IMG/VR virus record: IMGVR_UViG_3300010413_000011
Coordinates: 1 to 64,000 of that record
Strand: one strand, 5' to 3'
DNA length: 64,000 nt
From: a virus
Shown here: positions 10,814-61,616 of the stretch, piece by piece
How the letters are laid out: each line of letters starts with the position of its first letter
How positions within the stretch are numbered: position 1 is the first letter of the stretch
Made by a program: the position numbers and the translations under genes
Notes under the pieces: model-generated
Seen by the model: only the letters and a program-made list of their open reading frames with translations
Told to the model about the DNA's origin: nothing
Databases searched by the model: none

Positions 10814-10856
10814 AAATGAAAGATTGTCAGAAATTTTCAGAAAGGGGTTTTAAGTT

Positions 10857-30746: not shown

Positions 30747-31159
30747 TGACTGAAATAGCCAAAATAGATCTGAACTGGGCTCGCAACGTTTGGTGTATTG
30801 CAGGAGGAGGCCACCGGGTGATTTTACTGGATGACGCCTCTATTAAGTTGTTGTTGGACCCTGGCGGAGATATGACTCTCACAGTCCCGGTGGATTGGCT
30901 ATTGAAAGTCAACGATCAAGGATTAACGATGGTGGTTATTTCTGTAGCACTGTGGGAGCACGTTAGTTGGAAAACGGCGGCTCTCCGGGTGGCTAAAGGG
31001 GACAGCGGGAAAGGTTGTCTATACTACAAAAGGTCTGCTCTTAAATTATGGCGGATGCTTATCGAGGAGGTTTACGGGAGGAGGTCAGGGAATGGCACAA
31101 GAAGGTTCGCGCCGGTTTGCGAAAAAAGAGAAACCGGCAAGTGGCAAAAAGTTCGTTAA
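30746..31159 (+). CDS. Hypothetical protein from a leaderless-type promoter
   Basis: A 137-residue protein (138 if the preceding ATG is used). The N-terminal half looks like a small beta domain (NVWCIAGGGHRVILLDDASIKLLL, MTLTVPVDWLLKV) and the C-terminal half is basic and helical (KLWRMLIEEVYGRR). No family is recognised. It overlaps the next gene by 68 bases in another frame, and that gene's ribosome site (GGAGG) lies inside its end. Confidence 0.5.
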   Translation: MTEIAKIDLNWARNVWCIAGGGHRVILLDDASIKLLLDPGGDMTLTVPVDWLLKVNDQGLTMVVISVALWEHVSWKTAALRVAKGDSGKGCLYYKRSALKLWRMLIEEVYGRRSGNGTRRFAPVCEKRETGKWQKVR

Positions 31160-34443: not shown

Positions 34444-35173
34444 TGATTAACCTTTGTGTTCTCGCGTCGAGTTCACCTAAATGTAGTCGCTGTTTGAAAA
34501 TGATATAATCGATTTGTCCAGGACTCGCTGTCCCGTCCTCGAGACAATCCAGAGCCTCAAGGTATTTTCCGTCATCACCTAACTCGAGATCGACAGACTC
34601 GCCGTATTTCAATTTTCGAATTTCATTTTCGATTTTGTCGATCGAAATTAATTGGTTTGGTAAAGGAAATCTACCAAAACTTTTGAATCGTTTGATGTGT
34701 AATCTGATGTAGTCAGCATAAGAAATCCCATGCTCGTCTGCGATCGCTGCCGCCTTGACTAAAAAGTGATATACTTTTGAGGAAGGAGTTATAGGTCTTA
34801 AATGTTTGTTACCCAGGTGTTGAGATCTGAGCAGAGTATAAATTCGATTAAAGTGGTCAACCTTAGATTCTTGACTAACCACCGGCTTCGATGTCACTTC
34901 GAATCTTGCCAAATTGTTTAAGCGGATGGCGACAATGGAGCCATCTCTTCTAATGAGACCAGACTTCCTCAAGGTCTTCATACACCGTTTGGCATCTCTT
35001 AGTTCAATATCTAAAGTACTCGCCCATTCGCTCGCCTTCATTGGGATTTTCGATACGAATCGATATCTCATATACATCGAAACATAGAAAAATCTTGCCT
35101 CCAAAGGTAGGTCAAGTGTGTTTAAAGAGACGACAACTCGTCGAGTTTCAGCTAATACTTTTTCAGATTTCAT
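34406..35173 (-). CDS. Winged-helix replication protein, unknown family
   Basis: A 255-residue protein. I chose the ATG at 35173 because it follows GAGGAT; an in-frame ATG at 35185 lacks a good site. Residues ~20-110 read as a winged helix (LPLEARFFYVSMYMRYRF, ASEWASTLDIELRDAKRCMKTLRKSGLIRRDG). The C-terminal half is helical and charged. It overlaps both the phosphoribosyltransferase and the primase-helicase genes, so the three are likely co-translated. Similar winged-helix proteins next to phage helicases act as initiators or loaders, but I can only infer that here. Confidence 0.55.
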   Translation of the reverse strand: MKSEKVLAETRRVVVSLNTLDLPLEARFFYVSMYMRYRFVSKIPMKASEWASTLDIELRDAKRCMKTLRKSGLIRRDGSIVAIRLNNLARFEVTSKPVVSQESKVDHFNRIYTLLRSQHLGNKHLRPITPSSKVYHFLVKAAAIADEHGISYADYIRLHIKRFKSFGRFPLPNQLISIDKIENEIRKLKYGESVDLELGDDGKYLEALDCLEDGTASPGQIDYIIFKQRLHLGELDARTQRLINGKKKSRRFCKE

Positions 35174-35645
35174 TGAGATCCTCATACGGAAAGACTACCT
35201 TGCCATCATTAGGACCTATTCGTTGGGAAAAATAAATGGGTCGATATAACGTCTGCCCTAGATCTCGGTAAAATATAAACGCGCCTAGAGATTTTACCGA
35301 CATGCCGCTAAAACAAGCACCCTGAAAAGTCAAACCAGTATCTAAAATATCGTCGACAAAAATACAGCGGCCAACCGGTCTATCTAATCTTATGTCGAGT
35401 TTAAGGAAGTGAGATAACATTACGGCGGGTATGAGACCGCCCCGGGGCTCGCCCCATAATTTCCAAAGATGGTTCGGAGACCAAACAGTTTCCTCGGGAA
35501 TAATTAGATGACCTTGAAGTTCTTTTTGTAGTCGTTCAAGTTGTCTAATATTTGTAGTAGCCAAAATTTTTTTAATATCGATTGCCATCAACTCGATGTA
35601 ATCTATATAATCCTTCCATTCAACTTTAATCGGATTCGAAGACAT
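35163..35645 (-). CDS. Type I phosphoribosyltransferase
   Basis: A 160-residue protein with the PRPP-binding motif CIFVDDILDTGLTFQG (about residues 94-109), preceded by GEPRGGLIPAVMLSH, typical of purine or guanine/xanthine phosphoribosyltransferases. The enzyme would join a free nucleobase to PRPP to give a nucleotide. A ribosome site, AAAAGGAG, lies before the ATG. It heads the minus-strand operon with replication genes. In a phage with possible base-modification genes it could salvage a normal or an unusual base; the substrate cannot be told from sequence. Confidence 0.75.
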   Translation of the reverse strand: MSSNPIKVEWKDYIDYIELMAIDIKKILATTNIRQLERLQKELQGHLIIPEETVWSPNHLWKLWGEPRGGLIPAVMLSHFLKLDIRLDRPVGRCIFVDDILDTGLTFQGACFSGMSVKSLGAFIFYRDLGQTLYRPIYFSQRIGPNDGKVVFPYEDLNEI

Positions 35646-35794: not shown

Positions 35795-36403
35795 ATGAAA
35801 TTCTTAATCGCAGTTTTAGGTACTCATGGCTCTGGCAAAACTGAAATCTGCCAAAAAGTCTCAAGTCTTATACGTCACGCATTCTCAGACCTATCTGTTT
35901 CCTCAGTAGATAAAAAAGATAGTGTACCGAGATCTTTGGCAGAGGCAACGCAGTTATATAAAAATATCGACCATCGAACCCAGGTAGAAATTTGTTTTAA
36001 GGTTTTAACAAATGCGATGGCCGGTCTTGTCTATTATGACGTCGTTTTTGTCGATCGACTATTGGTCGATTCTATTGCTTATATTCGAACGGCAGAAAAA
36101 GTCGATCGCGGTATTATTGCCTCTCTAGATTCAGCAATTCGTTTTTTGTTTTTCGAGAGTCCTCATATCCATACCATAGTAGCTGTTCCGGCACCGAGTT
36201 TTCCCCTACCTAAAGATAATTTCAGATTCGAAGACGAAGAGTATCGCCAATATATTTCAAGATTGATTACGCGAGAACTAATTCGAATGGCTATACCGTA
36301 TTATTTTCTTGATCAAAAATCTTTAGATGAACGAATAAGTTATCTGACGAGTTACGTCAGTTCAGCAATATCATTATCGAAATTGAAAGGAGAAAAACAT
36401 TGA
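35795..36403 (+). CDS. P-loop deoxynucleotide kinase-like protein
   Basis: A 202-residue protein with Walker A GTHGSGKT (residues 9-16), then a DVVFVDRLLVDS motif near 86-97 that resembles the DR(Y/L) substrate motif of thymidylate and AAA_28-type kinases. A C-terminal helical lid is seen. It probably phosphorylates a nucleoside monophosphate and belongs to the nucleotide-supply group with the genes downstream. The ribosome site AGGGAGG lies 12 bases before the ATG. Confidence 0.6.
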   Translation: MKFLIAVLGTHGSGKTEICQKVSSLIRHAFSDLSVSSVDKKDSVPRSLAEATQLYKNIDHRTQVEICFKVLTNAMAGLVYYDVVFVDRLLVDSIAYIRTAEKVDRGIIASLDSAIRFLFFESPHIHTIVAVPAPSFPLPKDNFRFEDEEYRQYISRLITRELIRMAIPYYFLDQKSLDERISYLTSYVSSAISLSKLKGEKH

Positions 36404-37215
36404 AAGTAGCTCACATAGTCGGTATTAACCATTTGAATTTGGTCAGGGATAAAAATTTCCATTTAGTTCTTGCTCATCTTCTCGACGAAAGTGCCACCTA
36501 CAGAAATTTCTATAAGGAAGTAGGTAACGAAGGTGCCTTTTTAATCTTGGACAACTCTGCGTTTGAGTTAGGCGAACCTTATCCGCCAGAGGAAATGATA
36601 AAACTAGGTAACGAAATCAACGCGTCGGAAATTATGGCGCCCGAGATTTACCAAGATGGCAGAGGAACGATCGAAGTAGTCGAGGAGTTTGCCGCAAAGG
36701 TTAAAGAATTAACTAATAAGAAATGGAATATCATAGCAACCATCCATGGTAAAACCTTCGACGATTGGATGAATTGTTTCAAAGCTATTATCTCGATCAA
36801 CAACATAACCACGATTGGTTTATCTTGTAGAGCGGCAGAGTATTTCACTGACCTACGGTCGAGTTCAGTCACCACCCAAAGAACTTTTAATCGGATTGGT
36901 CTTACTCATATCCTCAATAAAACCTGCGTCGGCAAGTTTACTCCTTTGAGACAGTACCATCTATTAGGTTCCACCGATCCTGTCCTCGAGTTAACTGTTC
37001 AAACGAAATACGATTGGATAAGAAGTATTGATACGAGTTCCGCTTTTGCTCATGGTTGTCAAGGTATAAACTTTGGTACCCGGGCTCTGGCAACCGAGAG
37101 GATAGGGGATATCGATTTCAATACGCCCCACGATCCTCATAAGATAAAAACCATTGTTCACAATATGAGAATACTTGACGAATTGGCAGGAGAAGAAAAT
37201 GATTTTACCAGGTAA
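36400..37215 (+). CDS. TIM-barrel protein resembling tRNA-guanine transglycosylase/DpdA
   Basis: A 271-residue protein starting with TTG on the stop of the kinase gene, behind AAAGGAG. The pattern AFLILDNSAFELGE (about 47-60), IMAPEIYQD, WNIIATIHGKT, IGLSCRA, HLLGS and IRSIDTSSAF (about 205-214) is that of a TGT-like barrel, with an Asp after the first strand pair (DNSAF) and a second Asp in SIDTSS. These positions correspond to the catalytic acids of base exchange enzymes. The four-residue zinc site of tRNA TGT is not seen. A DNA- or nucleotide-base exchange role is inferred. Related genes lie at 49.5-51.8 kb. Confidence 0.5.
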   Translation: MKVAHIVGINHLNLVRDKNFHLVLAHLLDESATYRNFYKEVGNEGAFLILDNSAFELGEPYPPEEMIKLGNEINASEIMAPEIYQDGRGTIEVVEEFAAKVKELTNKKWNIIATIHGKTFDDWMNCFKAIISINNITTIGLSCRAAEYFTDLRSSSVTTQRTFNRIGLTHILNKTCVGKFTPLRQYHLLGSTDPVLELTVQTKYDWIRSIDTSSAFAHGCQGINFGTRALATERIGDIDFNTPHDPHKIKTIVHNMRILDELAGEENDFTR

Positions 37216-40737: not shown

Positions 40738-41640
40738 ATGCCAAAGAAAAAGGAAAAAAAGAAGGGCGGTAAAAAGAGTCTTATTGAAGAGGTTCAAAAG
40801 ACTCTGAAGGAACAAAATCGCAAGAGTGCCGGAGCGATGTTCGGCGACACTTCCATTTGGACTCCGGGTAAAGGGACCAATAAAATTCGGATACTACCGA
40901 GTTGGAACCCAGACGAAACTCCGGTCTTCTACAAAGAAGTTGCCTACCATTACTCGGTAGGACCTGATGAGTCGATTGTCATGTGTCCTCAAAGGATGGC
41001 CGGTAAACGGTGCTTCATCTGTGAGCAGGTCAAGGAGCTAAAAAAGGCAAAAGGCAAAGGAGCGAAGAAGGCAAAGGCTATCATCGAGAAGGTGAGAGCA
41101 AAGGGAAGAATTCTCTACAACATCGTGGACCTCAACGACAAAAAGGCTGGGATTCAGGTCTTTATCTCTGGACCAAAGATTTTCAAGGAATTGTTATCGA
41201 TGGTCATTGATGAGGATATCGGAGACATCTCCGACCCGAAAGAGGGATTCGATATCAAAATCATCCGCGAAGGTGAAGGTCTCGACACCGAGTACAGGGT
41301 CCGGGCCGCTGCGAAGGCAACAGCAATCAAGAAAAAGGCTTGGCTAAAAGGCCTGAACGATCTCGACGCTCTGGCTGGTGATCTCCCGAGTTATGAGGAT
41401 ACCAAGGCGGCTTGGGAAGGCGAAGACGAAACGGACGACGAAGAGGATGACGACGACGAGGAAGCAGACGACGAAGAGGATGACGACGAAGACGAAGAGG
41501 ATGACGACGAAGACGAAGAGGACGAGGATGACGAAGACGAAGAGGACGAGGACGACGATGAAGAAGATGACGATGACGAGGAAGAAGAGGAGCGTCCGAA
41601 GAAAAGTAAAAAGAAAAAGAAGGGAAAGAAAAAGAAGTAA
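40738..41640 (+). CDS. Single-stranded DNA-binding protein, gp32-like, with long acidic tail
   Basis: A 300-residue protein with AAAGGAGGT before its ATG. Residues ~45-220 resemble the T4 gp32 core: NKIRILPSWN, KEVAYHY, a CPQRMAGKRCFICEQ segment with three Cys that could hold zinc, and GRILYNIVDLND. The N-terminus is Lys-rich, as in gp32's cooperativity region. From ~225 the chain is almost pure Asp/Glu for about 55 residues and then ends in a Lys block (KKSKKKKKGKKKK), unlike known SSB tails, which end acidic. It coats ssDNA at forks and partners with recombination proteins. Confidence 0.72.
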   Translation: MPKKKEKKKGGKKSLIEEVQKTLKEQNRKSAGAMFGDTSIWTPGKGTNKIRILPSWNPDETPVFYKEVAYHYSVGPDESIVMCPQRMAGKRCFICEQVKELKKAKGKGAKKAKAIIEKVRAKGRILYNIVDLNDKKAGIQVFISGPKIFKELLSMVIDEDIGDISDPKEGFDIKIIREGEGLDTEYRVRAAAKATAIKKKAWLKGLNDLDALAGDLPSYEDTKAAWEGEDETDDEEDDDDEEADDEEDDDEDEEDDDEDEEDEDDEDEEDEDDDEEDDDDEEEEERPKKSKKKKKGKKKK

Positions 41641-42572: not shown

Positions 42573-43550
42573 ATGTATGGTTATCAAATTTATCTGACCC
42601 ACGGCTGTAATCTGCGGTGTCGGCAATGTGGTGTCTGGAGGGCCAAATCGATCGGTCGGGAAAAACAATGGACCGAATGGGCAGCTATCCTACCGACCAT
42701 GGTCCAGGTTTTCGAGAAAACATTTCATCGGAAACCAGCGTTCAAATTGATGGGAGGCGAACCAACAATTTATCCGGGTTTCGAAGAAGTTTGTAGAGCA
42801 ATTAAAACACTCGGTTGTAATATTTCTGTTCTGTCGAATGTTAGTAAAACCTGGCAGTGGGAAATGTTGACTCGAGTTTTGGGAAAAGGGGATTCAATTT
42901 TCGTTTCAATGGATTTCTTTCCGAATAGAAGGAAACAATATGAGATGAGATCCGATCCGGCAGAAGAGAAGGCTTTTGCTGCCCTCCATTTCATCGAGAC
43001 CTTTCCCGACAACCAAACCGATTTCGAGGTCGGCGTAAATATTACGGTATCTTCGGATACCTTGCCTAGATTATCTGGCCTTATTGATTGTTTGGTTCAG
43101 TTGAACGCTAAGATGAATATTTGTCTTCGGCAAGGCAGCGAACCGAATGAGGACGAACTCTACCACGTTCTTAGGGCACCGAATCGAACTGGCAATTTAA
43201 ACCAGGAGGAGGTCGACCAGTTAGTCAAAATTATGCTATCCGACTTATTGCCAGTTCCAGATCTTTTTCTCGGATCAAAGGAATACATTAGGATAATTCA
43301 GGTTCACGGAGCGAATAACGATTGGCATTGTAGAGATCAACTCCACCTTCCGTATATTTATTTGGATTGCGATGGTTCGGTAATGGCGTGTCCAGACGTC
43401 GCCTTACCAGATCCTCAGGTTTTACCTTTAGCGAGTCCGACTCCTTTTGTTTGGACCGAGAGGATGTTGAAGACCTATCGTGCCAAATGTTGTGGCTGTA
43501 CTATTTCGTCAGCGATGACCGATGTTGTCGCAGCACTCTGGGAGAAATAA
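42573..43550 (+). CDS. Radical SAM enzyme with C-terminal cysteine-rich region
   Basis: A 325-residue protein; ATG 42573 follows GGGGGTGA. The N-terminus has the cluster motif GCNLRCRQC (C12, C16, C19), FKLMGGEPTIYPGF (SAM-binding GGE) and ISVLSNVS. The C-terminal part has more cysteines in LDCDGSVMACPD and KCCGC, as in SPASM/twitch auxiliary clusters. Such enzymes make radicals for peptide, cofactor or base chemistry; the substrate cannot be told. The first cysteine loop is not of the QueE type. It is the first gene of a tight cluster with an aldehyde:ferredoxin oxidoreductase two bases downstream. Confidence 0.75.
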   Translation: MYGYQIYLTHGCNLRCRQCGVWRAKSIGREKQWTEWAAILPTMVQVFEKTFHRKPAFKLMGGEPTIYPGFEEVCRAIKTLGCNISVLSNVSKTWQWEMLTRVLGKGDSIFVSMDFFPNRRKQYEMRSDPAEEKAFAALHFIETFPDNQTDFEVGVNITVSSDTLPRLSGLIDCLVQLNAKMNICLRQGSEPNEDELYHVLRAPNRTGNLNQEEVDQLVKIMLSDLLPVPDLFLGSKEYIRIIQVHGANNDWHCRDQLHLPYIYLDCDGSVMACPDVALPDPQVLPLASPTPFVWTERMLKTYRAKCCGCTISSAMTDVVAALWEK

Positions 43551-43551
43551 A

Positions 43552-45462
43552 ATGATACTTTCTGCTCCTAAAATTGCCCATATTGGCTTGGACAATCGAG
43601 TTTACCAAACTCATTGCCTTCATCCGAAAAATTTTTTACAATTTTTGGGAGGGCGAGGATTGAACAGTCATCTGACTTTTCAAAACCGCTCTATTAATTT
43701 CCCGATGGTTTTTATTACTCCAGGGTTGTTGACTGGAACTCTGTGTCCATCGTCGTCTCGCTGTACTATTGGTACTAATATATCACCCTCTTTAGGAAGA
43801 TGGGCTGATGGGAATCTCGGAGGATTTTTTGGAGCTGAACTAAGAAGAGCAGGTTGGAATCAAATTTGGTTAGAAGGTATTTCCGAAAAACCTATTTTAA
43901 TATATATTGAAAACCAAAAAATAAAAAGTGTTGACGCTGGTAATCTTTGGGGACTCGGAGTTCATGACACAACTGAGAGAATCCGAGAAGAGTTTGGGCC
44001 GGACGCTCAGTCTCTTGTAATCGGGCCGGCCGGAGAAACCCAGGTCGCGTACGCCTGCGTTATGTCGGGCGATAGAGCGGCAGGAGGAGGCGGTATTGGT
44101 GCCGTCCTCGGGAAAATGAAAGTCAAGGCGATCGTTGTTCGGGGAACTAGAGGTCTTGAACCTGCCCAACCCGAGGAGTTTATGGACGCTTGTCTGGCGG
44201 CTCATAAACAAGTTCGATCGAATCCTTTGTTCGGTGAGTTTTCACAATCTGGTACTTCAATTATTACATCCATTTATAAAGGAGTCAAAGCACTACCGGT
44301 TAATTATTGGGATAAAGGAGATTCGCCACACGCTTACAAATTCGAACCAGGAAATTTGAAGACGAAAGTTGTAAAAAGTCGAGCTTGCTATGGTTGTTCG
44401 ATTCATTGCTCTCATGAACTTACTTTCGGGTTCGAAGGGGTAGAGTACGAGGCGTTGAACGGGCTCGGTCTTAAAATTGGAATCACCGATCTAGACGAAT
44501 GCCTTCGTTTGATAAAATGGTTCAACAACCTGGGTCTCGATGTAGTCCAGACCTCTGGCGTTCTAGGTATGTTGATGAAAATGACCGAAGATGGCTTCGC
44601 GATGAATATGGATCGAATTAAATTTGGAGATGCTGAGGCTATTTGGACGCGAGTTGCTAGTTGGATGGATAGTAGAAGAAGAGATCTCAGTTTTTGGAAT
44701 GGTCTTGACGCCGGGTTCGAAAGATATTCTGAGATATTTCCTCCAGGTCCTGACGGAAATAAGGGCGATGTTCTTAAACGATTCCGTCGAAAGTATTCGG
44801 TCGATATTAAAAATTCAATGCCACCCAGCCTAGACTTCAGGGTTCCAGAAAACTTTGCGGCTACTATTGCTTGTATGACGGCTACTCGAGGCGCTGACCA
44901 TCTTAGAAGTTTGGCACCGATTGAGGCCTACGGTCAGTGGTACGGGAGAGAGGATCTCGAGGCGATGGCTATTCATTTTGGAATACCATCTGATATTATG
45001 AAAGAATGGTTGGACCTGGACGGGTTCGATCCTAAAATAAATTCGAAAAGTATAAGAGGAAAGGTTGCTATCATTTCTTACTTTCAAGATCAAAATGCTG
45101 TGACCGATGCCCTGGGTCTTTGTCGATTCGCCTCAAGTTGGAGAATGGGAGTCGGCCTCGAGTTGATGGCGGAGATGGTTTCGACTTTTCTTGGTATAGA
45201 TATGAACTGGTGTGGCCTGCGAGCAGTGGGCCAGAGGATAACCGTCTTAGAAAGATATCTGAACTCGAAAGTGTACGGCATGAATAAGTTCAGTGATTAT
45301 CCTCCCGAGAAATTTTTCGTAGAGCCTTTGAATGGGAGGAATCAACTCTCACATCATGACGTAAGATCAGCCCGCGATCAGTTCTATGAGTATAACGGAT
45401 ATGACGAGCAGGGATGTCCGACACCGGATACTTTTGAAAAATTAGGATTGGTTGTCAAATGA
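43552..45462 (+). CDS. Aldehyde:ferredoxin oxidoreductase family tungstoenzyme
   Basis: A 636-residue protein of full family length. It has GGRGLN (33-38), PGLLTGT (57-63), a GGGGIGAVLGKMKVKAIVV pterin-binding motif (178-196), the [4Fe-4S] ligands C279, C282 and C286 in CYGCSIHC and a fourth Cys at 524 in DALGLCRF, VEYEALNGLG (298-306) and RGADHLR (446-452). These are the conserved sites for a bis-tungstopterin and an adjacent cluster, so the enzyme looks intact. The family oxidises aldehydes or, in reverse, reduces carboxylates or activated rings with ferredoxin. It needs a host tungstopterin cofactor. It sits between a radical SAM gene and its likely electron-transfer ferredoxin. This is not a usual phage gene. 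Confidence 0.88.
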   Translation: MILSAPKIAHIGLDNRVYQTHCLHPKNFLQFLGGRGLNSHLTFQNRSINFPMVFITPGLLTGTLCPSSSRCTIGTNISPSLGRWADGNLGGFFGAELRRAGWNQIWLEGISEKPILIYIENQKIKSVDAGNLWGLGVHDTTERIREEFGPDAQSLVIGPAGETQVAYACVMSGDRAAGGGGIGAVLGKMKVKAIVVRGTRGLEPAQPEEFMDACLAAHKQVRSNPLFGEFSQSGTSIITSIYKGVKALPVNYWDKGDSPHAYKFEPGNLKTKVVKSRACYGCSIHCSHELTFGFEGVEYEALNGLGLKIGITDLDECLRLIKWFNNLGLDVVQTSGVLGMLMKMTEDGFAMNMDRIKFGDAEAIWTRVASWMDSRRRDLSFWNGLDAGFERYSEIFPPGPDGNKGDVLKRFRRKYSVDIKNSMPPSLDFRVPENFAATIACMTATRGADHLRSLAPIEAYGQWYGREDLEAMAIHFGIPSDIMKEWLDLDGFDPKINSKSIRGKVAIISYFQDQNAVTDALGLCRFASSWRMGVGLELMAEMVSTFLGIDMNWCGLRAVGQRITVLERYLNSKVYGMNKFSDYPPEKFFVEPLNGRNQLSHHDVRSARDQFYEYNGYDEQGCPTPDTFEKLGLVVK

Positions 45463-46079
45463 GAAAAGAACGAATTAAAAGTCTATGGAGTCATCTTACA
45501 TCGACACCGGTCGAAATCGTTCGAGGTTTTTCTCGTGCCGTTGTTTTGGTGACAAGGCAGTTAATCCTTTTAGAGAATCCTGTAGAAAGGATCTTACCGA
45601 AGTCAGCGCTCCTCTGTTCTTTTCAGCCTAAAAAACTTTCATACGAAAAGGCTGACTCATACCTGGGTTTCCTCCTAACCAAAAGGATTAGAGTCGATTA
45701 TACTAAATGTACGGGCTGTAAGGCATGCGAGTTGGCGTGCTCTTTAAACCATTACGGACGCTGCGAACCCGAGGAATCGAGAATCAGAATTGACCGACAA
45801 TGTAAAAAGTCGGCAGAGTTCTTTCCTTTCGTTTGTCAACACTGTACGATGCCCGAATGCGTTGTGGTCTGCCCGTCTGGAGCTTGTACGAGAACAAAAG
45901 AAGGTCTCGTAGTCGTAGACCCGGAACTTTGTATTGGTTGTAAACTTTGTATAATCGTTTGTCCGCTGAGTTCAGCGGCATGGAATTGGAGATTAGGTCA
46001 ATCGATGAGATGCGATCTTTGCGAAGGTGAACCGGTCTGTGTCAAGGTTTGCTCGACTAAGGCCATCGATTTTCATTGA
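45459..46079 (+). CDS. Ferredoxin-like electron-transfer subunit (four [4Fe-4S] sites)
   Basis: A 206-residue protein whose ATG overlaps the stop of the oxidoreductase gene. Residues ~75-206 have cysteine patterns for four clusters: CTGCKACELAC, CQHCTMPECVVVC, CIGCKLCIIVC and CDLCEGEPVCVKVC, as in HycB-type and AOR-associated ferredoxins. The first ~70 residues are a basic extension with a hydrophobic stretch (AVVLVTRQLILL) not usual in this family. It probably carries electrons to or from the tungstoenzyme. Confidence 0.85.
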   Translation: MRKERIKSLWSHLTSTPVEIVRGFSRAVVLVTRQLILLENPVERILPKSALLCSFQPKKLSYEKADSYLGFLLTKRIRVDYTKCTGCKACELACSLNHYGRCEPEESRIRIDRQCKKSAEFFPFVCQHCTMPECVVVCPSGACTRTKEGLVVVDPELCIGCKLCIIVCPLSSAAWNWRLGQSMRCDLCEGEPVCVKVCSTKAIDFH

Positions 46080-46090
46080 GGAGATAGATC

Positions 46091-46351
46091 ATGGTAGAAA
46101 CAGAGCAACAAAAAGTCTATGAGGCTCTAGTTGGTTTAGGATATATTTACGGAGTGAATTGCGCACTAGAGCATATAGGCATTGACCATCGAATAATGCC
46201 AGAACAGGATGACGAGAAAGAAGGAATACTCTATCCTTGGTACGATAAAGGACCATCGGGACAAATGGAAAAGAAATTAAAACAATTGGCAAGTAATTTG
46301 GTTCAAGATGGAATTTCAGTAGCTGACGTGGAACAATGGGGTTCGTTTTGA
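46091..46351 (+). CDS. Small hypothetical protein in the redox cluster
   Basis: An 86-residue protein, mostly helical (QQKVYEALVGLGYIYGVNCALEHI, EKKLKQLASNLVQ), with GAGGAGATA before its ATG. No motif is recognised and there is only one Cys. Packed between the ferredoxin and UbiD-like genes, it may be a small partner of one of them. Confidence 0.5.
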   Translation: MVETEQQKVYEALVGLGYIYGVNCALEHIGIDHRIMPEQDDEKEGILYPWYDKGPSGQMEKKLKQLASNLVQDGISVADVEQWGSF

Positions 46352-46379: not shown

Positions 46380-47957
46380 ATGAAATGGAATGAAGGAATC
46401 TTTAAGGCAAGAGAATTTCCAGACGAGCCGTTGAGTATGTTTTCTTGCCTAGCGGAATTGTGTAATTCGCAACCATCGGTCCCCTGGAATTATGCTGGTC
46501 GAATGATTCGAGTAACCGAAAAAGTTTCGATCGACTACGAGATAATGAAATTCGTTCGCGCTTCGGCTGACGATCCCTCTGGATTTAGCCCCGGGTTCAT
46601 ATTCGAGAATGTTTCGAGTGAGATGGCACCAGATCCGAAAACGACTCGATATCCAATCTCTGTTGTCGCTGGAATGTATGGAACCGAGGCACGAGTAAGT
46701 CGTATATTGGATTGGTGTTTAGGAACCAAAGAAAAATTCGACTTAAGTACTCCGGCCTGGCGAAAATATCAGCGAGCGTTGAACAGAACGTCACATGGCG
46801 TGGTTCGGATTTTTCCCGAAAGAGACGACTTAGGTCATGTATACGACATTCGATACGAACTCCAAGACCTTCCGATTTGTCTTCACAACGAAAGAGACGG
46901 AGGTCGATTCATCACCGGAGGTGTCCAGATCGTCTGGGATCCGGAATTCGAATGTTATGTCTCTGGTATTCACCGAATGAAGGTCATCGATAAAAATACT
47001 CTCGGGTGTTTGGCTACCGGCGAAAGAAGGATCGGTAGAGCGATAATGAAATGGCATGAACGAGGATTTAAGGCACCTGTTATTACATTAATAGGAGCCG
47101 CACCTTGCGACGTTTTCGCGTCTCAAGCCAAAGTACCTCATAACACGGATAAGTATGCTGTCGCAGATCGCTTCACACCCGGAAACGAGAAGAGAGATTT
47201 TTGTGGTTGGACTCCTTCCAAACATGCGAAATACGCTCCCGACCACTTACATATTATCCCTACAGATTCTGAAATTGTTATTTTGGGATTAGTTCCATTA
47301 GGCGAACCGAACAAACCAAACCTTATTAACGACAACCCGTTTGGGGAATTTCCTGGTACCTATTCCTTTTCGAATACTTCCGCGGCTTGGAGAGTAGAAG
47401 TAGAATATGTTATGACCAGATCCGACGCACCGATCTATCAAACCATGACCACCGGATTCCCTGTGCTCGAGGATCATATTCTTTGTGGCACGGCGAATGT
47501 TCCTTACCTCTTCGAAATTCTTCAAAGAGCCTGTTCAGAAGTGGTCGATATTAGCTTGGGAAAAGAAGGCAACTATGTTTTCGATGCTCACGTTTCCATT
47601 AAAAAGAGAATGTCTGGCGAAGCGCGCAATGTTATTTTAGCAGCGCTCTCGACCGTCACTATAAAAAGTGTTTGGATATACGACGACGACATCGACGTTC
47701 ATAATCCTCGTGACCGGCAGTTCGCATGGAACACGAGATACCAGCCTGCGACCGATACAATTATTATTGGCCATCCTTTGGTTGGTTCGAGTCTCGATCC
47801 ATCTTGTCCTGTCTTTCGGCACACGACTAAGGTAGGTTTTGACTGTACCAAACCTTTAGGTCAGGAGGATCGATACAAAAAGGCTTTGTGGCCAAAGGAT
47901 GAAATAGAAATCTATTCGAAAAAAGTACTCGATTTAATCGATAAGTGGGAGGACTAA
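46380..47957 (+). CDS. UbiD-family (prenyl-FMN-dependent) decarboxylase
   Basis: A 525-residue protein of full family length, with AAGGAGA before the ATG. Its motifs follow UbiD: LPICLHNERDGGRFITGGVQ (164-183), SGIHRMKV with R199, NPFGEFPGTYSF with E323 (the usual proton-relay Glu), a DAPIYQT segment, the PVLEDH motif and the C-terminal DIDVHNPRDRQFAWNTRYQP and GSSLDPSC. The residue five before E323 is Asp318, where most members have Glu. UbiD enzymes remove or add a carboxyl group on aromatic or unsaturated rings using prenylated FMN made by UbiX; no UbiX gene is seen here. A phage copy next to an AOR is very unusual. Confidence 0.85.
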   Translation: MKWNEGIFKAREFPDEPLSMFSCLAELCNSQPSVPWNYAGRMIRVTEKVSIDYEIMKFVRASADDPSGFSPGFIFENVSSEMAPDPKTTRYPISVVAGMYGTEARVSRILDWCLGTKEKFDLSTPAWRKYQRALNRTSHGVVRIFPERDDLGHVYDIRYELQDLPICLHNERDGGRFITGGVQIVWDPEFECYVSGIHRMKVIDKNTLGCLATGERRIGRAIMKWHERGFKAPVITLIGAAPCDVFASQAKVPHNTDKYAVADRFTPGNEKRDFCGWTPSKHAKYAPDHLHIIPTDSEIVILGLVPLGEPNKPNLINDNPFGEFPGTYSFSNTSAAWRVEVEYVMTRSDAPIYQTMTTGFPVLEDHILCGTANVPYLFEILQRACSEVVDISLGKEGNYVFDAHVSIKKRMSGEARNVILAALSTVTIKSVWIYDDDIDVHNPRDRQFAWNTRYQPATDTIIIGHPLVGSSLDPSCPVFRHTTKVGFDCTKPLGQEDRYKKALWPKDEIEIYSKKVLDLIDKWED

Positions 47958-47958
47958 A

Positions 47959-48363
47959 ATGGCAAAGAAGAAAAGTTTAAACAATAGGGAAAGGGAAATC
48001 GGACGTAAGTTAGGAGTTACCCGGAGGGCTGAACACGACTATGCGACAGAGTTTGATCCTTTCGAACAAGGATACCGAGAGTCCATGGAACACGAGTCTG
48101 ACGAATTCAAATACGTTCTGCCCGGATGTTTCGGTAGGATGAATTTTTGGCCTCCTCGAGAAGAGTTGAAGGCCGTGTCTGGCATGGACGAAGGTTTCGT
48201 AATTCAAAAGGGAGTTGCTCAGTATTTGGAAGGTGAGAGACAAGCCGGGATTGTCAAAAAGTGTTTAGGTTGTTCTCAATACCAGCGATGTGCTTTGGCT
48301 ACCGTAGTTGGTAAAACTTCCTCAATCCGAGAGAAAACTAAACCTACTCCCGTAGACGAATAA
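47959..48363 (+). CDS. Cys-rich hypothetical protein
   Basis: A 134-residue protein starting immediately after the UbiD-like gene. It is basic at the N-terminus. Near its end CLGCSQYQRC (about 101-110) has three cysteines, which could bind metal or a cluster. No family is recognised. Tight spacing suggests co-expression with the UbiD-like and ThyX-like genes. Confidence 0.5.
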   Translation: MAKKKSLNNREREIGRKLGVTRRAEHDYATEFDPFEQGYRESMEHESDEFKYVLPGCFGRMNFWPPREELKAVSGMDEGFVIQKGVAQYLEGERQAGIVKKCLGCSQYQRCALATVVGKTSSIREKTKPTPVDE

Positions 48364-48383: not shown

Positions 48384-49349
48384 ATGAAAATCGAATTAAT
48401 GCGCCACACGGTTGAACCAGAAGAGCTGTTGGAAGAACTGGTAGAGCTTAGTTACCGGACGCAACACTTCCCGAAACACCCTGCTCTTGTCGAATTTAAG
48501 AGTGGTCGTCAAGTTCCTTTGACCCAATTGAAAAATCTTACCATGATTCCGAAACCCGGTACTGTGATCCCTGGGTTTGAAAAAGACGACGTAGAAGTTG
48601 TTAAGGTGATCCCCAGGACAGCAGAGAAGGCAGTCAGGTTCGCCATCGCCATCGGACATTTCGCTTTGTTCCGTCAGGTAACTGTAACCTGGAGAGTCGA
48701 ACTCAGCAGGAAATCTGTTCTTCATTATTTGAGATACCAACATACAGCAGAGAACATGGTGTCACAAAAATACCTCGACCAAGGTCAGTTCGAATTTATA
48801 ATGCCGACAACCCGAGATTATCCTCCCGAGGAACTCATGGTCTATAAAGAAGCAATGCAAACGATTCAGTCATATTATGAACGCCTTCGGAATTTCGGCT
48901 GGGACCCGGAGGATGCTCGACTGGTTTACCCGAACTCTGCTCTTCAAAAATTTATCTTCACCGCTAATATGGAAACCATGCGTCGGCTATTTGATATCCT
49001 ATGCGACGAGGACTACGTCGATGAGATGCATCGGTTCGGTTTGGCCATGTTGGCTACCATTAAAAAAGTTATGCCAGCGTTCGTATATGATTACAGATTC
49101 TATTCGAGGAATGACGACGGACATATTTATGCGAAGCGTCGGAGAAGAAAAGGTGGAGACAACGTTAAAGTGAATTGGACTGATCCGAATTGGATGGAGG
49201 AAGATGAGAAACGAGAAACCGACGAAGTTTGTCGACTCCAAGAAAAAATACCTAATGAGTTAATAAATTTTGCGAATGAAGGTCAACGATTCTTCACTGT
49301 AGTTCCTGAAAACGAAATTCCAGAACCGGAACATTGGGAAACAGAATGA
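48384..49349 (+). CDS. Divergent ThyX-like flavin-dependent thymidylate synthase homologue
   Basis: A 321-residue protein with AGGAGGA before its ATG. The overall ThyX outline is visible: GHFALFRQVTVTWRVELSR, then RYQHTAENMVSQKY (117-130), which aligns with the RHRxxSxNExSxRY motif but keeps only R, N, S and Y, and later ARLVYPNSALQKFIFTANMETMRRL, typical of the C-terminal half. ThyX makes dTMP from dUMP with FAD and methylenetetrahydrofolate. With several key residues changed, it may act on another pyrimidine or group, or may be inactive. It lies in the cluster with UbiD-like and DpdA-like genes. Confidence 0.65.
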   Translation: MKIELMRHTVEPEELLEELVELSYRTQHFPKHPALVEFKSGRQVPLTQLKNLTMIPKPGTVIPGFEKDDVEVVKVIPRTAEKAVRFAIAIGHFALFRQVTVTWRVELSRKSVLHYLRYQHTAENMVSQKYLDQGQFEFIMPTTRDYPPEELMVYKEAMQTIQSYYERLRNFGWDPEDARLVYPNSALQKFIFTANMETMRRLFDILCDEDYVDEMHRFGLAMLATIKKVMPAFVYDYRFYSRNDDGHIYAKRRRRKGGDNVKVNWTDPNWMEEDEKRETDEVCRLQEKIPNELINFANEGQRFFTVVPENEIPEPEHWETE

Positions 49350-49525
49350 AAGTAGTCGCAACACAACTAAAACTCGAGAACATAGAAATTCTCCACAATG
49401 CGAAGAAGGGAGATACGCTCTCCCTAAAAATAATTAATACGCAGGAAGTGCCACTTGATGAAGACGGACTCGACCCAGACAGCTGTCTCTTGGTTCTCTT
49501 CGGACGATTGGGAACCGGGAACTAA
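49346..49525 (+). CDS. Small hypothetical protein overlapping the DpdA-like gene
   Basis: A 59-residue product whose ATG overlaps the stop of the ThyX-like gene (ATGA). It overlaps the start of the next gene by 68 bases in another frame. The first ~45 residues look like a small beta domain (VVATQLKLENIEILHNAKKGDTLSLKII). No clear ribosome site is seen, so translation would depend on coupling. It may not be real. Confidence 0.4.
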   Translation: MKVVATQLKLENIEILHNAKKGDTLSLKIINTQEVPLDEDGLDPDSCLLVLFGRLGTGN

Positions 49526-50597
49526 CGATAGAATAGGTTTTGAAAAAGTTTGCAATAAAGGAGTGCGCCGAGACACTTACAACGGTTTATACTTTAAGGG
49601 TGGATCAGGCGCCTCTGAATTTTTCAAAACCGAGCCAGATCAAAAGCAGATCAAAATTCATCGAACCAAGATCTTCTTAACCACTACTCGAGCACAACAC
49701 ATGTGGGGCCTTCTCGACGCGAACTACCCTTACATTTTAATGTCGTTTTGGTACTACAAGACCGTGACAAATGTTTTCGGTTCCCTCCGGAATGCCTTTG
49801 CTGCTCGAGATAAAAACATCGACGATTTCGAAATTATGGTAGATAGCGGCTCGTACAGTGCTACGGTCAAAGGTACCTCGGTAGATCTGGATACTTATAT
49901 TGAATGGCTCTACCACGAAGAGGATAATGTCGATTGGTATGTTAACCTCGATACTCAGTTCAAACCAGAAGAGGGACTTCGAAACTGGGCGATCCTTTGT
50001 GCGAACGGATTACATGACGCCATTCATGTCCACCATAGACCAGAGCCTTGGAAGTACTGGGATATTATAGCAGATCATTGTGGAGAGTTTGGAGGTCTTA
50101 GTCCGATGCCTCGAGCAAAGAGAGGCGTTAAACTCGAGTACTTTACCAAAGCTCATTCAATGCACCCACAGAAGAAACTTCATTGGTTTGGCTCTGTCGA
50201 TAAAGAGTTGGCCAAAATGTTCGATGTATATTCTATGGACTGCTCGAGTGCTGACGCGGTCGCTTATCGCGGGATTGTTTGGACTCCTTGGGGAGCGGTT
50301 AACCTGGGTTTTAACCCGAACTACAGTAATCACATTGATCGCTTACCTCTTGACATCCGCTCTAAGGTCACCGAATGGTTTATGACACATGGTTTTGAGC
50401 TTCATGATTTAAGGCCCGGGAGACCCTATATGCCTTCGCATAGATTCAGAATTTATTTCAACGCACTGGGTTATCTCGCGTCCATGGTCGAGATTGAAAA
50501 AGAGAAAAGTTTAATTGAGTTACCAGATCCAGAATGGATTCGGTCTTCGGAAATTTATACTAATTATGAAAGTGAGTTACCAAAAGGATGGAAGTGA
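49458..50597 (+). CDS. DpdA/TGT-like base-exchange protein, copy 1
   Basis: A 379-residue TIM-barrel protein; ATG 49458 follows CAGGAAG. Patterns shared with DpdA and tRNA-guanine transglycosylases: FEIMVDSGSY (D129), VDWYVNLDTQF, AIHVHHRPEPWKYW, FGGLSPMP, LHWFGS and YSMDCSS with a second Asp. DpdA swaps guanine in DNA for a 7-deazaguanine base. The first ~65 residues are an extra domain. It is paralogous to the gene at 50821. No preQ0-synthesis genes (folE, queD, queE, queC) are in the window, so the base would come from the host or from elsewhere in the genome. Confidence 0.62.
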   Translation: MKTDSTQTAVSWFSSDDWEPGTNDRIGFEKVCNKGVRRDTYNGLYFKGGSGASEFFKTEPDQKQIKIHRTKIFLTTTRAQHMWGLLDANYPYILMSFWYYKTVTNVFGSLRNAFAARDKNIDDFEIMVDSGSYSATVKGTSVDLDTYIEWLYHEEDNVDWYVNLDTQFKPEEGLRNWAILCANGLHDAIHVHHRPEPWKYWDIIADHCGEFGGLSPMPRAKRGVKLEYFTKAHSMHPQKKLHWFGSVDKELAKMFDVYSMDCSSADAVAYRGIVWTPWGAVNLGFNPNYSNHIDRLPLDIRSKVTEWFMTHGFELHDLRPGRPYMPSHRFRIYFNALGYLASMVEIEKEKSLIELPDPEWIRSSEIYTNYESELPKGWK

Positions 50598-50824
50598 TGG
50601 CAACCTCGTATTTTAGAGGTCACAAAGGTTGGTACGACAATATTGAAAAAGTATGGAAGTATTTCGATACCAATCTTCCTATCGATCCTCGTCGCCCTTG
50701 TGTCCGATGTGGTAAAGAACCCACTCCCGAAGGTCATGACGCGTGTTTGGGACGGCTAGACGGTGCGTGGTCAGCCTGTTGTGGTCATGGAGTAATAGAA
50801 CCATATTTAAAAATTACATTATGA
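50597..50824 (+). CDS. Small zinc-binding protein between the DpdA-like genes
   Basis: A 75-residue protein whose ATG uses the last base of the preceding stop. Cys/His-rich: CVRCGKEPTPEGHDACLG (about 35-52) and SACCGHG (about 59-65) could bind one or two zinc ions. Similar short proteins with the pattern CxxCGxxPTxEGxDACLG occur in many phages without known role. It is overlapped on both sides by DpdA-like genes, suggesting a partner. Confidence 0.6.
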   Translation: MATSYFRGHKGWYDNIEKVWKYFDTNLPIDPRRPCVRCGKEPTPEGHDACLGRLDGAWSACCGHGVIEPYLKITL

Positions 50825-51843
50825 GAAACCCTACAACATTTAAAGTCGGAACCGGTCGAGTCATGGTCCCGCACGATCACAAAAAGACTCGACTTTTTCT
50901 TGCCGTTAGTAACATGACAAGTTTTAGACCGATCGTCCGCTATACCTATCCATATCTTTTGATGAGTTATGCCTTTCTGAGAAGGTGGTGTCGGAGTTGG
51001 CGCTGTAACTCGATGAAGGAACTCTTTGCTTTATATGGTGGTGACATTCGAGACTTCAAAATAATGATTGACAGCGGTTCCTATACAGTCACGACTAAAG
51101 GAATTAATATAACAATTGACGACTATATAGAATTCCTATATGAAGAATGGGGTTCCTATAATTGGTATGTCAATTTGGATCTCCAATTTAAACCCGAAGT
51201 TGGCCTCGAGAACTATTTAATAATGTGCGCCAACGGCCTTCACGACGCAATTCATGTTCATCACCGACCGGAACCCTGGAAGTATTGGGATATGATTTGT
51301 AACGATATGGGTCCGTATGCCGGGCTCAGTCCCATGCCCAGGGCTTCAATGACGATCAAGAGAGAATATTTTTTGAAGGCCCATTCAATGCATCCCGATG
51401 TAAAAGTTCATTGGTTTGGGTCTGGCGCAATAACATTAATCAAACAGTTCGGTCCTTACTCTGTAGATGTTTCCTCTTATACTCAGATGGCTGGAATGGG
51501 TCATTGCTATTTTCCTTTTGGTACTTTCTACTTTGGTAGAAATACTTCGATTAAAAATTATTATGGAAACCTCGATAGTTCAATTCGAAAACAAATAAGA
51601 AAGTATCTCAAAACCGTTCCCCATTTTGTCGAAGATCGATTTATTAAACCCGAAGATCTGTTGTCACCAGTTCAAGATGAAACGGAAGCTCGTACCGCAG
51701 TCAATGTATGGTACTTCATGACTCATCTTCAATCGGCAATAAACGAAGAAAGAAATCTTTTGTCTCTTGAGGATGGTGACTTAATTCGCTACTCACCGTG
51801 GTATCACGGATGGGAAGATAAACCAATAGAGAAATGGAGTTGA
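50821..51843 (+). CDS. DpdA/TGT-like base-exchange protein, copy 2
   Basis: A 340-residue paralogue of copy 1, sharing long identical stretches such as LHDAIHVHHRPEPWKYWD, KAHSMHP and VHWFGS. The chosen ATG (50821) overlaps the preceding stop. It keeps both candidate catalytic acids: FKIMIDSGSY (D84) and YSVDVSS. It lacks the N-terminal extension of copy 1. Two adjacent, diverged copies may form a heterodimer, as some transglycosylases do, or act on different bases. Confidence 0.62.
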   Translation: MRNPTTFKVGTGRVMVPHDHKKTRLFLAVSNMTSFRPIVRYTYPYLLMSYAFLRRWCRSWRCNSMKELFALYGGDIRDFKIMIDSGSYTVTTKGINITIDDYIEFLYEEWGSYNWYVNLDLQFKPEVGLENYLIMCANGLHDAIHVHHRPEPWKYWDMICNDMGPYAGLSPMPRASMTIKREYFLKAHSMHPDVKVHWFGSGAITLIKQFGPYSVDVSSYTQMAGMGHCYFPFGTFYFGRNTSIKNYYGNLDSSIRKQIRKYLKTVPHFVEDRFIKPEDLLSPVQDETEARTAVNVWYFMTHLQSAINEERNLLSLEDGDLIRYSPWYHGWEDKPIEKWS

Positions 51844-55881: not shown

Positions 55882-56814
55882 ATGGGAGGTATTTTCGATG
55901 GCAAGAAGCGATGGCATGTTCCAGATACGAAACCTAAGAATCTGAAAGAGTTATTACCGAGAACATCGATCAATAAAAAAATCGGTATATTAATTCAATA
56001 CCGGAACCGATGTCATTACGTTGAGATGTGTTTAACTCGCATCTTAGCGAACACTACTTATCCTTGGAGGAACATTAGTCTTGTGTTAGTCGACGACGAC
56101 TCTGACAATTGGGTTACGGAACGAATCGCAGCCCTTGTCGAACAACACCACGAAAAACGAATAAGACTAATTAAAAATAAAAAAAGACGAGGCACGACGC
56201 CTTCGTTTATCGATTTCCTAGAGGAGTATTCTGATCATGACTTTCTAGTCAAGTTAGACAGCGACCTTCTGGTTTGCCGAGGATGGTTATCGGCCGCGGT
56301 CGATTGGCTAAACAAACATCCTGACGTATCGCTCGCCAATTTTAGGCTGACTTACTTAGCAAGGGAACCAAAACCGGACGACCCATGGATTACATACCTT
56401 GACAATTTGAACGGTGCTCTTATTTTTCGGAACTCCTTAATTCCTTTAATCGATATGACCACCGATGGGAAATGGGAGTTCTGGACGGACGCCAATTGGC
56501 AAAGAAAATTGAGTAGCGAAAATCATTTGTTGGCGATCATGCCGATCGACGTCGAGCACATAGATGGTACTCCGGTATTCGGTGCCTTTGGTTCAGTTTG
56601 GGAGAAGGGTCCTCACCCGTTGTGGTTAGGCAACCGGCAAAATAAATTGGAGGGTACCGAGCAGATTGGACCAATTTTTACGAACCAACTCGAGTCCTAT
56701 GCGGACTTCAATCCAGAGGACGCCTGGCCTCGAGCACGAGAAATTCGGCATGGTAAGCGAATGGGCGAGTATCAACTAAAAGTTAAGGCACGAGAAGGAG
56801 AACTCATTAAATGA
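55882..56814 (+). CDS. GT2-family glycosyltransferase
   Basis: A 310-residue protein with GAAGGAG before its ATG. GT-A fold motifs: IGILIQYRNRCHYVEMCL, LVLVDDDSDN, LRLIKNKK-like strand, FLVKLDSDLLVCRGW (DSD metal site, about 115-125) and a WTDANWQRKL acceptor-site region. It is likely to add a sugar to a base, protein or host glycan. It lies among recombination genes, far from the larger glycosyltransferase at 12.8 kb. Confidence 0.75.
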   Translation: MGGIFDGKKRWHVPDTKPKNLKELLPRTSINKKIGILIQYRNRCHYVEMCLTRILANTTYPWRNISLVLVDDDSDNWVTERIAALVEQHHEKRIRLIKNKKRRGTTPSFIDFLEEYSDHDFLVKLDSDLLVCRGWLSAAVDWLNKHPDVSLANFRLTYLAREPKPDDPWITYLDNLNGALIFRNSLIPLIDMTTDGKWEFWTDANWQRKLSSENHLLAIMPIDVEHIDGTPVFGAFGSVWEKGPHPLWLGNRQNKLEGTEQIGPIFTNQLESYADFNPEDAWPRAREIRHGKRMGEYQLKVKAREGELIK

Positions 56815-60882: not shown

Positions 60883-61616
60883 AAAGATTAAAAGTCTTAG
60901 GTGTTGACCCATCACTTAACGGAACTGCCCTTGTAGTTCTGGCGGTGGGTCCTCATCCGAAAAATTATGAGATGGTCGACGCCATTGTTTTCAGCGATAA
61001 CAAGCAAGCTCAGAAGTTAAAGTATGTCAGACCTCTTGACATTTCGACTTATGACAGCGAACAGACTCAACTCGACCGAGCGCACTTAGTCGGTTGTGCC
61101 ATCTATGATCTTTGGAATAAACATGAAACCATAAGTCATTGTGGAATAGAAGGGTACGCGTACGGCATGCGCCAAAAGAGTCGAGCTGTTTATCAACTAG
61201 GAGAAGTGATTGGTCATATAAAAAGGACTGTATATGAAATAGGGTTTCCGTTTCAGGTCCTGCCGCCGACCAAGGTTAAACAATTCGTCACAGGGAACGC
61301 GCATGCTAACAAGGCTTCCATGATGGTAAGTGTCGCGAAACATTATGGAATGGATTTCGAACCATGGTTGATTAATACAACTGTTACTCCAGGTTTCGAT
61401 TTGGCTGATGCCTATTCGGTTGCTCGAGTTATTTCGACTAAAGTTTTAATACATCGAGGAGTCTTGAGTGTAAGAGATTCAATGGATGTCTCGGCTAATG
61501 AGAAGAAGGCTTTAATGACGGCGCCTAAAGGATCGTCGTCTATATTCGATACGCCCTTCACTAGACTATCGAGAAAAAGAATCTGGATTAAAGTAAAGGA
61601 GGAAAGTAATGGCTAA
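60879..61616 (+). CDS. RuvC-like Holliday junction resolvase
   Basis: A 245-residue protein with the RuvC/RNase H fold acids: LGVDPSLNGTALVV (D9), HCGIEGYAYG (E near 91), and FDLADAYSVARV (Asp pair near 185). A VTGNAHANKASMM segment resembles the DNA-binding region. It would cut branched DNA before packaging. It overlaps neighbours by 4 and 8 bases. Confidence 0.75.
   Translation: MKRLKVLGVDPSLNGTALVVLAVGPHPKNYEMVDAIVFSDNKQAQKLKYVRPLDISTYDSEQTQLDRAHLVGCAIYDLWNKHETISHCGIEGYAYGMRQKSRAVYQLGEVIGHIKRTVYEIGFPFQVLPPTKVKQFVTGNAHANKASMMVSVAKHYGMDFEPWLINTTVTPGFDLADAYSVARVISTKVLIHRGVLSVRDSMDVSANEKKALMTAPKGSSSIFDTPFTRLSRKRIWIKVKEESNG

Follow-up and report, generated by a model that had tools for sequence, protein, structure and literature searches.

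The aldehyde:ferredoxin oxidoreductases (AORs) convert aromatic and heterocyclic acids to aldehydes and have a broad aromatic substrate range (PMC9295118). UbiD enzymes carry an E(D)-R-E ionic network, and the solved members closest to the phage protein described below have furandicarboxylate and indole-3-carboxylate, two five-membered heteroaromatic acids, as substrates; indole-3-carboxaldehyde has been made in vitro by a UbiD together with a carboxylate reductase (PMC8988006). Phages that carry dpdA alone are also described (PMC6884629). This study was concerned with a window of 64,000 nucleotides, positions 1 to 64,000 of the 92.7-kb virus record IMGVR_UViG_3300010413_000011. A sequence-only reading had placed radical SAM, AOR and ferredoxin genes at 42573-46079, and three intact genes were found there. 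No enzyme of the AOR class is, as far as we know, described from a virus, and AOR, UbiD and UbiX are, to our knowledge, part of no described 7-deazaguanine modification system. The three genes are as follows.

42573-43550, plus strand: radical SAM protein, 325 amino acids from the ATG (PF04055, 40.5 bits against a cut-off of 29.5)
43552-45462, plus strand: AOR family protein, 636 amino acids (both AFOR domains above cut-off; residues for catalysis and cluster binding retained)
45459-46079, plus strand: AorA-type ferredoxin subunit of the four-cluster type, 206 amino acids (Fer4_11 over cut-off)

The AOR family assignment was confirmed by profile search, in which AFOR_N scored 169.8 bits (curated cut-off 29.8) and AFOR_C 221.3 bits (curated cut-off 27). 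In an alignment of seven AOR sequences, the cysteines C279, C282, C286 and C524 and the glycines of the GxxGxGxV loop were invariant, as were E298, E300, D330, H450 and D519; the cluster cysteines and motifs are thus intact, as first read, and their possible loss, which had been named as a test, was not seen. Read against the 1AOR alignment, the four cysteines correspond to those that bind the cluster in the Pyrococcus enzyme, E300 and H450 the active-site Glu and His, and D330 and D519 the pterin-side Asp residues. The PDB relatives of the phage AOR are 1aor, 9mqx and 8c0z. Tungsten, rather than molybdenum, is the expectation from the family.

The radical SAM frame has an alternative GTG start at 42567, but a better ribosome-binding site (AGGGGGT) precedes the ATG at 42573. 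The protein contains a CX3CX2C motif and additional C-terminal cysteines, shows weak homology to the radical SAM proteins of four archaeal AOR loci, and is probably a partner or maturase of the AOR. Its score against TIGR04317 (tungsten cofactor maturase) was 33.5 bits, below the cut-off of 380, and it is not assigned to that family; it may act similarly. QueE was considered for this gene and rejected, the QueE-like PHROG match being weak and the extra C-terminal cysteines being present. The ferredoxin has an N-terminal extension of about 74 amino acids, and in the PDB it best matched the Fe-S subunits that belong to the AOR complexes 9mqx and 8c0z. The earlier assignments of both partners are borne out by PF04055 and Fer4_11. 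Coupling of the genes also held: the AOR and ferredoxin genes overlap by ATGA, and the three genes are coupled to one another and to the phage flap exonuclease.

The functional unit had been taken to end at 46079. It likely extends further. The next enzyme gene encodes a UbiD-family decarboxylase, which lies between two orphan frames.

46091-46351, plus strand: orphan protein of 86 amino acids between the ferredoxin and UbiD (open frame with a ribosome-binding site)
46380-47957, plus strand: UbiD-family prenyl-FMN-dependent (de)carboxylase, 525 amino acids (three Pfam domains over cut-off)
47959-48363, plus strand: orphan protein of 134 amino acids with a cysteine cluster (open frame, one base after UbiD)

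Family searches gave no match for the 86-residue orphan and nothing over cut-off for the 134-residue one. The UbiD protein scored 98.4 bits for UbiD (cut-off 23.3), 25.8 for UbiD_N (24.3) and 76.2 for UbiD_C (24.2), and 197.4 bits for TIGR00148, below the cut-off of 244.85; on its sequence it is a divergent member of the UbiD family. The closest solved UbiD enzymes are 6h6v (HmfF) and 7p9q (AnInD). The ionic network is present as a D-N-P-F-G-E variant, in which the R and E align with HmfF and the first Glu is replaced by Asp. In addition, a UbiX flavin prenyltransferase (TIGR00421, 136.2 bits against a cut-off of 108.9) is encoded on the same record, about 41 kb from the cassette.

Further enzymes in the window are related to the guanine transglycosylases of phages.

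35795-36403, plus strand: P-loop NMP-kinase-like protein (AAA_28 over cut-off), overlapping the third transglycosylase gene
36400-37215, plus strand: putative third transglycosylase, with related genes in phiST (gp042) and in Campylobacter phages
49455-50597, plus strand: DpdA-like guanine transglycosylase paralogue a (phrog_887, E 1.4e-15; tblastn matches; frame read from TTG, start tentative)
50743-51843, plus strand: DpdA-like guanine transglycosylase paralogue b (phrog_887, E 5.8e-21; likely start ATG 50821)

Paralogues a and b lie 1.5-4 kb downstream and are 41% identical, and paralogue b matched Streptococcus phage MS1 (tblastn, 5e-14). Their DS, D, H, KxH and SxDxxS positions are invariant in comparison with three phage DpdAs, and the DpdAs that share these residues belong to phages with deazaguanine genes. 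The protein at 36400-37215, which we presume to be DpdA3-like, matched Cellulophaga phage phiST (4e-8) and Campylobacter phages CP20 and CPt10 (9e-10) by tblastn and has conserved LDN and SxD motifs; a profile comparison with the two DpdA paralogues was not significant. phiST gp042 lies within a QueD-QueE-FolE cluster, QueC being absent from the phiST stretch examined. A gene related to the kinase adjoins the third-transglycosylase homologue in CPt10 (pairwise E 3e-4 with 35795-36403), and homology between phiST gp041 and the kinase at 35795 was not significant. The description of an otherwise ordinary phage proved wrong. The host is probably an anaerobic microbe.

We propose, with a probability of about 0.48, that the cassette serves 7-deazaguanine DNA modification as a module for heteroaromatic carboxylates and aldehydes, acting for instance on 7-carboxy-7-deazaguanine (CDG). 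The AOR and its electron-transfer subunit would interconvert a heteroaromatic carboxylic acid and its aldehyde, with the radical SAM protein probably servicing the AOR, and UbiD, with prenyl-FMN made by UbiX, would interconvert the same acid and its decarboxylated form. The DpdA-type transglycosylases would then exchange the product base for guanine in phage DNA. The most likely substrate would be CDG drawn from the host queuosine pathway, which the AOR could convert to 7-formyl-7-deazaguanine using low-potential electrons and UbiD to 7-deazaguanine, or UbiD could carry out the reverse carboxylation. The host would supply cofactor and tungsten, and the two or three transglycosylases might insert different bases. 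CDG is a pyrrole analogue of indole-3-carboxylate. This reading is favoured by the position of UbiD after the AOR with UbiX on the same record, by the substrates of the closest solved UbiDs, by the acid-to-aldehyde chemistry of AORs and the in vitro synthesis of indole-3-carboxaldehyde, by the two DpdA paralogues downstream, and by the relation of the third gene to phiST gp042. The narrower proposal that a tungsten enzyme puts 7-formyl-7-deazaguanine into phage DNA, in addition to 7-deazaguanine made by UbiD, is doubtful on the sequences at hand. The roles suggested at the outset were chemistry on a base or a cofactor, or a boost to metabolism; of these, base chemistry has the best support, given UbiD, UbiX and the DpdA-type transglycosylases.

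Several results count against the deazaguanine reading. First, FolE, QueD and QueC gave no match on the phage record, with the controls working; the base would therefore have to be host-derived. Secondly, Pfam TGT models did not match the DpdA paralogues, and the predicted structures were of low quality (mean pLDDT of 34 for the 36400 protein and 40 for the DpdA pair). Third, the cassette was found in one phage genome only. The bacterial relatives of the cassette count partly for this reading and partly against it. The nearest bacterial AORs found, in G335 (Chloroflexota) and G303 (Desulfobacterota), are 35-37% identical to the phage AOR, share an insert with it and group with it in the tree (94/88). 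Among 144 AOR loci surveyed, a UbiD gene adjoined the AOR in these two and only one other, an association that favours the deazaguanine reading, and both clusters contain an AorA-type ferredoxin. On the opposing side, they also contain PaaK-type CoA ligase, hydantoinase, cupin and transporter genes, and from this gene content look catabolic. Identity between the UbiDs of the phage and of G303 is also only 23%. No relatives of the phage UbiD were found at 1e-50 in 400 Chloroflexota genomes, and neither Bacillota nor the class of G303 yielded a closer member of the UbiD-linked AOR subfamily.

The main rival is phrased in metabolic terms: an auxiliary module by which the phage boosts anaerobic aromatic or heteroaromatic metabolism of its host, with the proximity of DpdA coincidental. 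UbiD and AOR would channel an arene or an aromatic acid or aldehyde, and low-potential electrons would be supplied or drained by the AOR. The neighbours of the bacterial relatives and the breadth of AOR aromatic substrate ranges (PMC9295118) favour it. However, the phage record showed neither a CoA ligase nor a transporter nor any further catabolic gene, and the cassette sits within a replication and nucleotide operon, between the flap exonuclease and the ThyX/DpdA/RNR genes; we consider it rather unlikely.

Pyrimidine hypermodification is improbable. In that case the ThyX-like enzyme at 48384-49349 would help to make a derivative of thymine or uracil, which UbiD and AOR would then convert, for instance from 5-carboxyl to 5-formyl. 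This adjacent protein scored 53.1 bits against NCBIfam ThyX, below the cut-off of 87.9, and is divergent in its motif region, but it is over the Pfam cut-off, and the guanine-transglycosylase paralogues indicate purine chemistry. ThyX is a frequent, ordinary thymidylate synthase in phages. Even less probable is counter-defence, by which UbiD and AOR would deplete the CDG or related deazaguanines of QueC-family defence systems (qatABCD, type IV CBASS). Such deazaguanine-using systems exist (PMC13279940), but the DpdA paralogues and the investment of five genes would be left unexplained, and no defence-related partner was seen.

The three-gene unit had been noted as known from no described phage, and its rarity was upheld: no AOR was found in 50,697 phage records, nor by two signature patterns in 2.9 million IMG/VR contigs, both patterns having matched several bacterial AORs. 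One IMG/VR match to the second signature (L152), on the strand opposite a portal-like gene, was rejected as chance. Related phages were also sought in IMG/VR with AOR, polymerase, UbiD and DpdA queries, and none was found; a DpdA-specific pattern had no match there. A bacterial operon joined into a phage contig during assembly would account for the lack of a second phage with the cassette, but is extremely unlikely on indirect evidence: an exonuclease stop (42570) no more than 2 bases from where the radical SAM gene starts, an AOR GC content of 0.445 that matches phage genes, AOR codon usage that also matches them (RSCU r = 0.82; structural genes, 0.81-0.85), a single coding strand from 36 to 62 kb, UbiX on the same record, the absence of MoaD or any other bacterial neighbour, and the low identity of the nearest bacterial AOR found.

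If 7-deazaguanine DNA modification is fed by the cassette, low-potential acid/aldehyde chemistry and prenyl-flavin decarboxylation would join the routes by which phages rewrite guanine. The formyl product, if real, would add to DNA a base that has not been described, and its enzyme would be the first virus-encoded tungstoenzyme known to us. The cassette also points to a bacterial subfamily of UbiD-linked AORs, which can now be tested for substrates.

Compared with known systems, the phage AOR is like AorAB of Aromatoleum aromaticum (8c0z) and the AOR/Fe-S complex 9mqx in both AFOR domains, the cluster cysteines and the active-site residues, and likewise has, beside the gene for the catalytic subunit, one for an Fe-S partner of that type. 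It differs in being phage-encoded, in having no MoaD or FAD subunit, in the N-terminal extension of the ferredoxin and in the UbiD and DpdA genes nearby. The G335 and G303 clusters share with the phage the AOR insert, UbiD beside the AOR and the AorA-type ferredoxin; unlike the phage, they include MoaD and genes that look catabolic but gave no radical SAM match, and their UbiDs are distant from that of the phage. The phage UbiD resembles HmfF and AnInD in all three domains, in the R/E(D)/E positions and in having a UbiX partner, and its identity to them is low. Cui et al. reportedly predicted DpdL, in 2023, to be a CDG decarboxylase, the same reaction as is proposed for the phage UbiD. The CDG-type cluster of phiST includes a gene related to 36400-37215, and phiST searched with the phage UbiD gave no match; UbiD would therefore be analogous, not homologous, to DpdL. 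Set beside the DpdA-based 7-deazaguanine DNA modification systems (Hutinet et al. 2019, PMC6884629), this phage record is without FolE, QueD and QueC, and is alike in its DpdA-type transglycosylases and their place in the replication region.

The radical SAM, aldehyde:ferredoxin oxidoreductase (AOR) and ferredoxin genes reported in the sequence-only reading were all found intact at 42573-46079. The AOR scored far over the cut-off for both AFOR Pfam domains, retains the four cluster cysteines claimed earlier (C279, C282, C286 and C524) and is joined to the ferredoxin gene by an ATGA overlap, which the sequence-only reading took to indicate coupled synthesis. Alignment, with positions read against the Pyrococcus AOR, indicated that the active-site residues E300 and H450 are kept, as are D330 and D519 from two pterin-side motifs. 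In the PDB, the ferredoxin matched best to the Fe-S subunits of two AOR complexes, 9mqx and 8c0z; judged by sequence, it is an AorA-type subunit. The radical SAM protein is a superfamily member by Pfam match but missed the tungsten-cofactor maturase cut-off by a wide margin; among 144 AOR loci it matched radical SAM proteins at only four, all archaeal (E 6e-7 to 8e-6). Its gene begins with an ATG at 42573, after the exonuclease stop at 42570, or with a GTG at 42567 overlapping the exonuclease, and one base separates it from the AOR.

A tblastn search of 50,697 phage records found no AOR, and neither did two AOR signature patterns run on 2.9 million IMG/VR contigs. As controls, the first pattern matched four of six plasmid AORs and the second matched several bacterial AORs from among the closest to the phage one, including that of genome G335 and excluding that of genome G303. 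Divergent copies can escape exact patterns and the set searched may omit near relatives of the window; thus, these searches indicate rarity, not absence. The cassette is known from a single phage genome.

The virus contig is 92.7 kb long and carries what appear to be large-terminase halves at its two ends, so the genome is probably nearly complete and circularly permuted. Genes 3' of the ferredoxin are, in order, an 86-aa orphan, a UbiD-family decarboxylase, a 134-aa orphan, a divergent ThyX, two DpdA-like transglycosylases and a B12-dependent ribonucleotide reductase.

Features of the virus record
1-379 and record 91681-92700, large-terminase-like halves (read by eye)
31092-32684, Lys/Glu/Asp-rich repetitive protein, 530 aa
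37650-40313, family A DNA polymerase with N-terminal uracil-DNA-glycosylase-superfamily domain
40738-41640, gp32-like single-strand binding protein whose acidic Asp/Glu tail is very long
48384-49349, ThyX-like protein, 321 aa, under the NCBIfam ThyX cut-off, motif region divergent
55882-56814, family 2 glycosyltransferase, in replication region
61609-62679, sulfatase/phosphodiesterase-family protein, in replication region
record 67943-68284 (3944-4285 of stretch L002), minus strand, S-adenosylmethionine decarboxylase (AdoMet_dc 76.5 bits, cut-off 25)
record 89082-89699, UbiX

A second UDG-looking protein was read by eye at 10310-10975 of stretch L003.

UbiX supplies the prenyl-FMN required by UbiD. 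The carboxylate of 7-carboxy-7-deazaguanine (CDG) occupies a position on the pyrrole equivalent to indole C3. AORs are capable of reducing aromatic as well as heterocyclic acids to aldehydes (PMC9295118), and UbiD enzymes reversibly decarboxylate heteroaromatic acids (PMC8988006). Of the solved UbiD structures, the two closest to the phage protein belong to enzymes acting on furandicarboxylate and indole-3-carboxylate, and in vitro, indole and CO2 yield indole-3-carboxaldehyde when UbiD is paired with a carboxylate reductase (PMC8988006). The sequence-only reading had suggested base or cofactor chemistry, or a metabolic boost in an anaerobe; it is supported in part, and base chemistry is the part extended here. 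Found in no other phage, the cassette has a context that yields a specific, testable prediction. Given the AOR and UbiD chemistry, the likeness of CDG to indole at C3, and the two DpdA paralogues (49455-50597 and 50743-51843), whose conserved residues align with DpdAs of phages carrying deazaguanine genes, the best-supported account is as follows. Host-made CDG would be the starting material; the AOR and UbiD, whose substrate, direction and metal are presumed here, would convert it to 7-formyl- and/or 7-deazaguanine; and the transglycosylases would exchange these into phage DNA, where the base would then be present. Of this account, the sequence itself shows the gene families, their motifs, the coupling of the genes and the association with neighbours.

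When the phage AOR was searched against roughly 1,100 genomes, the closest AORs were those of G335, a Chloroflexota genome (381 bits, 37% identity), and G303, a Desulfobacterota genome (283 bits), the phylum labels being those of the loci used as search centres. All three share an insert before the C-terminal cysteine and group in a tree (94/88), a grouping to be read with caution given the long branch of the phage protein. A UbiD gene adjoins the AOR or stands two genes away in G335 and G303 alike. UbiD was present at 3 of 144 AOR loci (these two and one other) in a taxonomically biased survey of short windows; thus, the UbiD-AOR association is only suggestive and not a census. These bacterial clusters contain a CoA ligase, a hydantoinase and transporters, and from their gene content look catabolic. 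The phage UbiD shares only 23% identity with that of G303. The strongest rival explanation is that the phage acquired a metabolic module from an aromatic-degrading anaerobe. In Desulfobacterota genomes (e.g. G725:C90, G707:C41, G218:C34, G262:C114 and G776:C209), several AOR genes have one in-frame TGA and others one TAG, possibly selenocysteine or pyrrolysine, or sequencing errors.

Less likely is a pyrimidine route via the divergent ThyX-like protein, which could be an altered enzyme. Depletion of CDG against defence systems that use deazaguanines is also less likely. Lastly, the GC content and codon usage of the AOR fit the phage genes, and assembly chimerism seems unlikely.

For incorporation of a CDG-derived base, a profile search with working controls did not find FolE, QueD or QueC in the phage, so the base would have to come from the host. 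At 35163-35645 (minus strand), near a kinase and the putative third transglycosylase (36400-37215), a phosphoribosyltransferase-like VDD-TG motif was read by eye; the protein had no family match. The gene at 36400-37215 is kin to Cellulophaga phiST gp042 and to Campylobacter phage genes. In phiST the gene is part of a QueD-QueE-FolE cluster; QueC is absent from the genes shown, and by gene content the cluster would end at CDG. Cui et al. 2023 reportedly found 7-carboxy- and 7-deazaguanine in phage phiST and gave the name DpdA3 to the gp042 type of gene, to which the 36400-37215 gene may belong.
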